DNA from: Dyella psychrodurans
GTDB taxonomy: Bacteria; Pseudomonadota; Gammaproteobacteria; Xanthomonadales; Rhodanobacteraceae
Direction: 5' to 3'
NCBI RefSeq assembly: GCF_003363265.1
Contig: NZ_QRBF01000001.1
Span: 1,210,451-1,274,450 of the forward strand
Length of the DNA: 64,000 nt
Positions 50,814 to 52,343 of the stretch are shown here, in pieces. The number at the start of each line of letters is the position of its first letter. The stretch's first letter is position 1. The notes beneath the pieces are model-generated. The model was not told the DNA's origin. It saw only the letters and a list, made by a program, of their open reading frames with translations, and searched no databases. A program made the position numbers and the translations under genes.

Positions 50814-51236
50814 TCAGACCGATCGCAACTGCACGGTTTCAGCTTTTTTGGTGGGCTGCAGCAAATCCCAGCGATTGCCGTAGAGATCCTCGAAGACGGC
50901 TACCGTGCCATACGGTTCCTGACGCGGCTGCTCCAGAAAACGCACGCCGCGTGCGCGCATCACGTTGTAACGCGCGTAAAAGTCATCTACATGCAGAAAC
51001 AGGAAAACGCGCCCACCCGCCTGCTCGCCCACACACACGTCCTGCTCCGACGTGCTGGCCAGGGCGAGCAGCAATCGCGTCTCGCGCGCTCCTGGCGGGG
51101 ACACCAGCACCCAACGCTTGCCGCCGCCCAGCGGCGTATCTTCCACCAGCTGGAAATCCAGGCATCCCGTATAGAACGCGATCGCCTCGTCGTAGTCGCG
51201 CACCAGCAGCGAAACAGCGGCGATAGCATGCTGCAT
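50814..51236 (-). CDS. VOC-family (glyoxalase/bleomycin-resistance-like) protein
   Basis: A 140-aa protein of the vicinal oxygen chelate fold. It begins AIAAVSLLVRDYDEAIAFYT (the typical first beta-alpha unit) and has FLFLHVDDFYARYNVMRARG and the closing VAVFEDLYGNRWDLLQP metal-binding block. The actual substrate is unknown. The gene's ATG (51236) lies only 17 bp from the left arm of the composite palindrome at 51253-51519, which therefore occupies most of its promoter region. Confidence 0.87.
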   Translation of the reverse strand: MQHAIAAVSLLVRDYDEAIAFYTGCLDFQLVEDTPLGGGKRWVLVSPPGARETRLLLALASTSEQDVCVGEQAGGRVFLFLHVDDFYARYNVMRARGVRFLEQPRQEPYGTVAVFEDLYGNRWDLLQPTKKAETVQLRSV

Positions 51237-51252
51237 GACAAAAAACTCCTTC

Positions 51253-51519
51253 GAGCCTGCTTATGATCTTTACGTGGCCCGCGCCGGGATCTGTTTGCGC
51301 GCAGGGCAAGGAAGAACGAGTGAAGTGTATGTCGATACATGAGCGAGTGATGACGCGGCCATGCGGGCAAACAGACCCGGCCCGAAGGGTTGTGTCTGAG
51401 TGGCCGTTAGGCAGTAGCGCGCGGCTTGACCAGACAGCCAGTCTGGCGCTGCGCCGCGCACTACTGCCTAACGGCCACTCAGACACAACGCGGGCTACGT
51501 AAAGATCATAAGCAGGCTC
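51253..51519. repeat. Composite palindromic element (nested inverted repeats)
   Basis: The element fills most of the 384-bp gap between the VOC gene and pyrH. Outer arms 51253-51282 and 51490-51519 pair over 29 of 30 positions. Inside are two hairpins. Arm A pairs 51284-51303 with 51362-51380 (one bulge, one mismatch) and has a small inner stem at 51326-51339. Arm B pairs 51389-51425 with 51453-51489 (36 of 37) and has a small stem at 51430-51446 in its loop. Arm B ends exactly where the outer right arm begins, giving a three-way-junction layout. No gene was recognised inside. Confidence 0.85.
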
Positions 51520-51558
51520 TCGAGTGACCACGGGGTGAAGCATAGACCGTTGGCGCGC

Positions 51559-51586
51559 TGACGTTCGCGTCGGCGTCCGCTACAAT
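51559..51586 (+). promoter_or_regulatory. Probable pyrH promoter
   Basis: A -10-like TACAAT (51581-51586) with CTGACG (51559-51564) 16 bp upstream as a weak -35 precedes pyrH by 35 bp. It lies outside the composite palindrome. Confidence 0.5.
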
Positions 51587-51620: not shown

Positions 51621-52343
51621 ATGAGCGACCAGCTAAAGTACCGACGCATCTTGCTCAAGCTCTCCGGTGAAGCCTTGATGGGCGAAGCCGATTACGGCAT
51701 CGATCCCAAGGTGATCGGCCGGCTGGCGAACGAGATCATCGAGATACAGCAGGCTGGCGTGCAGATCGGCGTGGTGATCGGCGGCGGCAACATCTTCCGC
51801 GGCGCCGGTCTGGCCGCTGCTGGCATGGACCGCGTCACCGGCGACCACATGGGCATGCTGGCCACGGTGATGAACGCGCTGGCGATGCAGGATGCCATCG
51901 AAAAACGCGGTGGTTTTGCCCGCGTGATGAGCGCCATCCAGATTCACGATGTGGCCGAGGACTTCATCCGTCGCCGCGCCATCCGCCATATCGAAAAAGG
52001 TCGCATTGCGCTGTTTGCCGCAGGCACCGGCAATCCGTTCTTTACCACCGATTCTGCCGCGGCACTGCGTGCGGTCGAAGTGGGCGCGGACCTGCTGCTC
52101 AAAGCCACCAAGGTCGACGGCGTGTACAGCGCCGATCCGGCCAAGCACAGCGATGCCAAACGCTTCGAGCGGCTGGATTACGACCAGGTCATCGAGCGCA
52201 AGCTCGCTGTCATGGACACCGCCGCTATCGCACTGTGCCGCGACCACGGCATGCCGCTGCGTATTTATGACATGACGGTACCCGGCAACCTGATGCGCAT
52301 CATGCGCGGCGAGCAGGTCGGTACGCTGGTCGACGCCGACTGA
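51621..52343 (+). CDS. pyrH: Uridylate kinase PyrH
   Basis: Hexameric UMP kinase of pyrimidine nucleotide synthesis. The 240-aa protein has the amino-acid-kinase blocks [40 protein letters not shown] and [16 protein letters not shown]. The ATG at 51621 ([10 protein letters not shown]) has GGAG 6 nt upstream; the in-frame ATG at 51585 overlaps the promoter. It is followed by frr, as usual. Confidence 0.97.

Follow-up and report, generated by a model that had tools for sequence, protein, structure and literature searches.

A 267-bp palindromic element lying between a divergent VOC gene and pyrH in Dyella psychrodurans is, judged from sequence comparison, very probably a non-autonomous transposable element (a MITE) of the IS5 class that would be moved in trans. 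It carries no transposase gene, has terminal inverted repeats and dispersed copies, and is matched by empty sites; furthermore, some of its end types are held in common with IS5-family insertion sequences (ISs). It is an unusual new variant of an IS5-type MITE, with a three-way junction as its cargo and stems that stay matched. We noticed no description of this element family in literature listings, a survey in which ISfinder and most subscription journals lay outside the scope.

A three-way-junction palindrome upstream of pyrH

The element occupies positions 51253 to 51519 of the window (the whole stretch of 64,000 nucleotides that was analysed). An earlier note, made from the letters alone, had described an outer inverted repeat enclosing two nearly perfect hairpins and folding as a three-way junction, and the repeat search and both minimum-free-energy folds bore out this layout. 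The outer repeat (51253-51283 and 51489-51519) is 31 nt long at 97% identity with a spacing of 205 nt, and that of arm B (51389-51425 and 51453-51489) is 37 nt long at 97% (36 of 37 paired); "nearly perfect" thus suits the outer stem and arm B but not arm A, whose repeat (51287-51307 and 51358-51378) is 21 nt long at 86% with a spacing of 50 nt. Folded as DNA, the element formed one three-way junction at -117.1 kcal/mol (shuffles -49.3, sd 3.7; z -18.5), and folded as RNA it again formed one three-way junction, at -199.4 (shuffles -100.4, sd 4.9; z -20.2). None of 200 shuffles folded equally well as DNA and none of 200 as RNA; the palindrome far exceeds chance. As had also been claimed, no transposase or recognised gene lies inside: the open reading frames of the element are short mechanical ones only, and no Rfam family was found there. 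The features are as follows.

51253..51519, no strand assigned: whole element, first-family MITE copy, 267 bp (inverted repeats, folding, dispersed copies, empty site)
51253..51283, no strand assigned: left half of the outer stem, the left terminal inverted repeat (inverted-repeat search, copy comparison)
51283..51381, no strand assigned: arm A, with a paired base and a partly paired conserved centre (inverted repeats, fold, copy comparison)
51382..51388, no strand assigned: small hairpin between arms A and B (fold; its pairs are invariant among copies)
51389..51489, minus strand: arm B, common to a second MITE family, with minus-strand wobble polarity (inverted repeats, alignment, covariance model, mismatch counts)
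51489..51519, no strand assigned: right half of the outer stem, the right terminal inverted repeat (inverted-repeat search, copy comparison)
50814..51236, minus strand: divergent VOC/glyoxalase gene, PF00903, start codon 16 bp from the element (ORF list, domain match)
51558..51586, plus strand: promoter-like site (CTGACG, 17, TACAAT) before pyrH, 38 bp beyond the element (consensus match only)
51621..52343, plus strand: pyrH, PF00696, start codon at 51621 (ORF list, domain match)

A stem enclosing two palindromic arms is also the form of the terminal repeat of a parvovirus (AAV). The element resembles it in shape only, having no replication protein or viral context.

The element is dispersed in Dyella and its family

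A BLAST search of the genome from which the window comes (4.54 Mb, 16 contigs) with the 267 bp found 10 places, the window copy included, that matched at least 228 of the 267 positions at 75 to 100% identity, together with further, weaker partial matches. Among 61 genomes, matches at E 1e-5 occurred in 30: all 16 of the genus, 13 of 21 in the rest of the family, and a single one of the 24 from beyond the family. In G016 and G053 the matches were weak, and the per-genome match numbers, in this search as in the second-family and arm B searches below, are to be read as "at least". An exact arm A motif was found in Dyella dinghuensis and D. nitratireducens. The earlier note had named a non-autonomous mobile element or dispersed repeat among its possibilities, to be checked by a search for further copies, and had held that a single copy with no compensatory changes in its arms would count against a mobile element or a conserved RNA. 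The opposite was found, with many copies and both-sided changes; dispersed copies, an empty site in relatives, and IS-type ends all favor the mobile element.

One genome, G019, carries a recent burst (L276 and L280 to L299), from whose 21 loci 18 copies with a mean identity of 98.5% were extracted, and another, G015, carries seven forms of 121 to 161 bp that have the same ends. By a crude gene caller, 49 of 73 first-family copies lay outside predicted genes, compared with 36 of 292 control positions; among the G019 copies the figure was only 6 of 18 (control, 7 of 72). The same caller placed 25 of the 49 no more than 15 bp from the 3' end of a gene and 19 no farther than that from a 5' end. 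Contig ends of the Dyella psychrodurans assembly (L015 and L011, on C11 and C5; L022 and L026, on C16 and C10) fall within element copies, and these breaks look as if they were caused by the palindromes.

Among 13 part-length matches we found no autonomous long version; judged by eye, most of them seem to be copies that lack one arm or have it truncated. Nine single ends (in G015, G000, G006, and G017) had no partner end at an IS-like spacing within 6 to 7 kb, and the same was true of four single ends of the Dyella psychrodurans genome, for two of which open reading frames were listed; the single end L192 has a partner 29 bases away and is a tiny remnant. Carriage by plasmids or phages was rejected, as blastn at E 1e-5 gave no match in 72,556 plasmid and 50,697 phage records.

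Element ends resemble those of IS5-family insertion sequences

Most copies begin with GAGCCTG, GGGCCTG, or a near variant, GAGCCTG being the conserved left-end tip of the window copy, and positions 8 to 20 diverge widely among copies while remaining paired. With the ends set at the shift that suited them best, 54 of 73 copies paired at 20 of 20 positions and 17 at 18 or 19, and the two truncated copies paired at 9 or 10.

Ends of this kind occur on IS5-family ISs: AGAGCCTGTCGTCATGAG in G003 (about 850 bp), TAGGGCGTGTTAACACTAT in G010 (820 bp), AGGGCCTGTTAACACTAC in G017 (818 bp), AGAGCCTGTTCAAAGTCTC in G078 and G031, and GGGCGTGTCATCAATTG in G021. The closest agreement was that of the G017 copy L111, whose ends are identical over 18 to 20 nt to both ends of the L246 IS and over 14 to 19 nt to those of the L248 IS. 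In G015, the ends of copy L144 agree at 89 to 94% over 17 to 20 nt with L245 and L215. By eye, 14 of the first 15 bases of the L004 end equal the G003 IS end, and the G019 copies have the IS-like end GGGCGTGTCATCAAT (15 nt). Set against six of these ISs, the core of the element matched in nothing more than short words of 9 to 13 nt. The transposases of the 820- to 850-bp ISs match NF033580 (IS5 family), one of four half-proteins falling just under the cutoff, and NF033581 (IS5 family) is matched by that of a 1.2-kb IS in L210 with ends similar to the second family.

We found no IS with the end type of the window copy itself (GAGCCTGCTTATGATC), which in its own genome occurs at element copies, small remnants, or single sites. 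The PF13340 transposase domain is present in 17 of 117 genomes of the family and not in that of Dyella psychrodurans. PF01609 is present in 9 of 14 genomes tested; Dyella psychrodurans has one match, beside end-like repeats of the second-family type, and G001, G006, G011, G014, and G028 have none, though they carry many element copies. The transposase partner may come and go. The 3.5-Mb genome G003 has 41 PF01609 matches, many of them one near-identical 850-bp IS5-family IS.

Of 83 copies, 79 entered the count of target flanks (4 were dropped). Identical 3-bp flanks of the TNA type were present in 10 and absent in 69, and 15 of the 79 lay between CTA and TAG. The G019 copies followed the latter pattern, with 17 of 18 between CTA and TAG and 1 between CTA and TAA. 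Four IS copies (L248, L258, L262, and L266) had TAA, TCA, TTA, and TAA, respectively, on both sides; a fifth, L256, had no identical 3-bp flanks.

The stems co-vary, and their pairing is restored over time

Dropping two truncated copies left 71 for the analysis of co-variation, of which 51 (at most 92% identical and within length limits) were kept. In these 51, 92.3% of cells were paired and both-sided changes had occurred at 84 of 110 pairs (shuffles 45.5, sd 2.9). The covariation score was 0.377, compared with 0.132 in shuffled controls and 0.052 to 0.067 in slid controls, relatedness being kept in the slid control and not in the shuffles. When nearest copies were compared (35 disjoint pairs), the outer 20 pairs of the stem showed 93 both-sided Watson-Crick changes and 25 one-sided changes, and the outer part of arm B showed 65 and 35. 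In the conserved interiors, changes were mostly one-sided (26 both-sided and 85 one-sided in arm A; 39 and 106 in arm B). Recent origin, which had been offered as a reason for the precision of the arms, does not account for it: copies that differ from the window copy by 10 to 25% stay paired. In the G019 burst, all 24 differences at paired sites were one-sided, while first-family pairs of at least 93% identity already had 9 both-sided and 4 one-sided changes in the outer 22 pairs. Thus, the stems regain their pairing with time, whether through arm-to-arm copying, selection, or both.

Arm-to-arm copying would not be needed if copies with unmatched ends cannot move, so that the survivors of a filter at transposition look compensated; the uniformly one-sided G019 burst is what would be expected before such a filter, or correction, had acted. 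However, the excess of both-sided changes is also present in the outer part of arm B, a region that forms no end of the element, and in L175 and L176 the whole of arm A is a different sequence and still palindromic. We regard a transposition filter alone as a possible explanation but not a favored one. There is one candidate pair of copies for both-sided change in place by descent: L129 (in G011) and L053 (in G008) occupy a common insertion point in two species and differ on both sides at 10 pairs. This pair is equivocal, since the two may be independent insertions: G009 (L320), which is closer to G011 by its flanks, is empty at this point, and the nearest relative of L129 is another copy, not L053. 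Repeated insertion, loss, and transfer are all options for the pattern at this site.

Mismatches distinguish the outer stem from arm B

Mismatches in the outer stem were equally rare in both forms (12 G-T and 10 A-C among 1,401 cells), which points to a DNA-level cause and not an RNA-level one, because selection for RNA pairing would not give equal numbers of the two. In the arm B stem, A.C outnumbered G.T on the plus strand by 205 cells to 9 and by 23 columns to 4 (P = 0.0003), which corresponds to wobble pairs on the minus strand. We rely on this count because the structure of the alignment was predicted on the opposite strand, so that its bias runs against minus-strand wobble; minus-oriented alignments, with a structure predicted on their own strand and hence a lean to G.U, gave 108 G.T and 4 A.C for the first family and 63 and 3 for the second. 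Arm A leaned in its polarity (16 columns to 5, P = 0.027), a result on which we do not rely.

This polarity in arm B would be explained either by a constraint on a minus-strand hairpin or by strand-biased deamination. The former raises the alternative that the element is a structured noncoding RNA spread by transposon ends, with a functional minus-strand arm B (which here reads in the direction of the VOC gene) and compensatory changes that come from selection on RNA pairing. Beyond the wobble count, such an RNA would be consistent with an arm B centre common to two families with different ends and with modelled matches in 20 of the order's 121 genomes. The outer stem, though, has no wobble preference, strand-biased deamination would give the same sign, and the independent A.C events are fewer than the cells, because in the 71-copy set 199 of the 254 inner arm B A.C cells sit in four conserved columns. 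Searches of Rfam 15 with L021, L276, L274, and L129 gave no match at gathering score, and no listed match to 1,301 bases around the window element reached it. Taking these points together, we consider a selected RNA unlikely. A known Rfam RNA was rejected, the sub-threshold miRNA matches lying far below gathering score and reflecting long hairpins.

A second family carries the same arm B module

A second family (for example, L016 and L019 to L023) has the same layout with different arms and with ends GGGATGCTCTGA; its query matched in 19 of 41 genomes. Its arm B aligns with first-family arm B read on the minus strand (42 sequences), and a covariance model of arm B scored 110.7 bits on the minus strand and 75.4 on the plus strand of the window arm. 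The 20 genomes of the order that the model matched comprised 10 in the family and 10 outside it, several of the latter weak; two outside the family, G210 and G171, have the full layout by eye. A longer form of this family, of about 290 bp (L208, L167, and L184), has its two arms separated by a linker that is rich in AT (near ATTTAAATTCAA).

The window copy and its empty site

The neighbors had been named as a divergent VOC gene and pyrH, and the PF00903 and PF00696 matches agree; tsf (PF00889) lies beyond pyrH. Of 37 genomes, 35 were matched by a pyrH query; 30 loci were compared for the element, which is present in one of them, that of the window. The VOC gene adjoins pyrH in 15 of the 29 loci from other genomes, and in all 14 of those 15 that were aligned the VOC-pyrH region is without the element, so that the earlier note's check for an empty site between the same flanks came out positive. 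The promoter-like sequence before pyrH is also present in the aligned relatives. The window copy is flanked by CTCCTTC and TCGAGTGACC, where a relative reads CTCCCGGCAGTGACT, and has no clear target duplication (TTC and TCG). With the VOC start codon 16 bp away on one side and the promoter-like site 38 bp away on the other, the insertion probably displaces the sequence upstream of VOC and spares pyrH. The same closeness to both speaks for a regulatory site specific to pyrH and VOC, but such a site is very improbable, as the element is missing here in 29 of the 29 other loci and present elsewhere in its own genome.

How the element might move and stay matched

Under our preferred reading, that of an IS5-type MITE, transposases from separate IS5-family ISs would recognise ends made up of the tip GAGCCTG or GGGCSTG and about ten more bases and would insert the element at short targets of the TNA or CTAG-like type. 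As cargo, the core would consist of two hairpin arms that do not come from the ISs tested. Template switching during replication may copy one arm of a palindrome onto the other, in combination with selection for two matching ends, and arm B may be further constrained as a minus-strand hairpin. Correction of quasipalindromes by template switching has been described for RNA genes as a mechanism of multi-base compensatory stem change (PMC8794818) and could supply one for the both-sided changes seen here.

Bacterial MITEs mobilised by ISs, as reviewed in PMC10969869, are small and noncoding; they fold stably, have terminal inverted repeats in common with ISs, and are bordered by short target duplications that fade. 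The present element is like them in its size, lack of coding capacity, IS-like terminal inverted repeats, and stable fold, and a minority of its copies have identical short flanks; it differs in a core that is a three-way junction not drawn from the ISs tested, in long stems that change on both sides, and in several end types around one core. The R0 and R2 repeats of Pseudomonas fluorescens, intergenic and 89 and 110 bp long, with one pair of inverted repeats that equal those of an IS in the genome (PMC2718517), are similarly dispersed, intergenic, and hairpin forming, with IS-type inverted repeats, whereas the present element has 267 bp and two enclosed arms. To IS5-family ISs themselves (NCBIfam NF033580 and NF033581) it is alike in ends and target type and unlike in its lack of a transposase gene and in a core unmatched in the six compared. 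A REP/RAYT-type element, for which a hairpin-recognising Y1 HUH transposase would supply mobility, would also be hairpin rich, dispersed, and mostly outside genes, but the ends, and the target duplications where present, fit the DDE kind and we hold this to be hardly tenable. A RAYT/REP origin was rejected with PF01797, which had no match in the Dyella psychrodurans genome and was positive as a control in 5 of 14 named genomes.

More speculatively, and with rather more doubt than conviction, arm B could be a conserved hairpin module that works as RNA of the minus strand or as single-stranded DNA and is carried by several otherwise unrelated IS5-type MITEs across the order, while the palindromes copy a changed end onto the other and so re-tailor both to a new transposase. 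If this were true, the element would be a parasite of transposases with self-copying ends.

In this family of elements, a single cargo core comes with ends of several types, similar to those of different IS5-family ISs, and the two ends change together. This makes it testable how a non-autonomous element keeps pace with changing transposases and whether co-variation of stems always means RNA function. Counting G-T against A-C mismatches strand by strand offers an easy means of discriminating the copying of DNA palindromes from selection on RNA.
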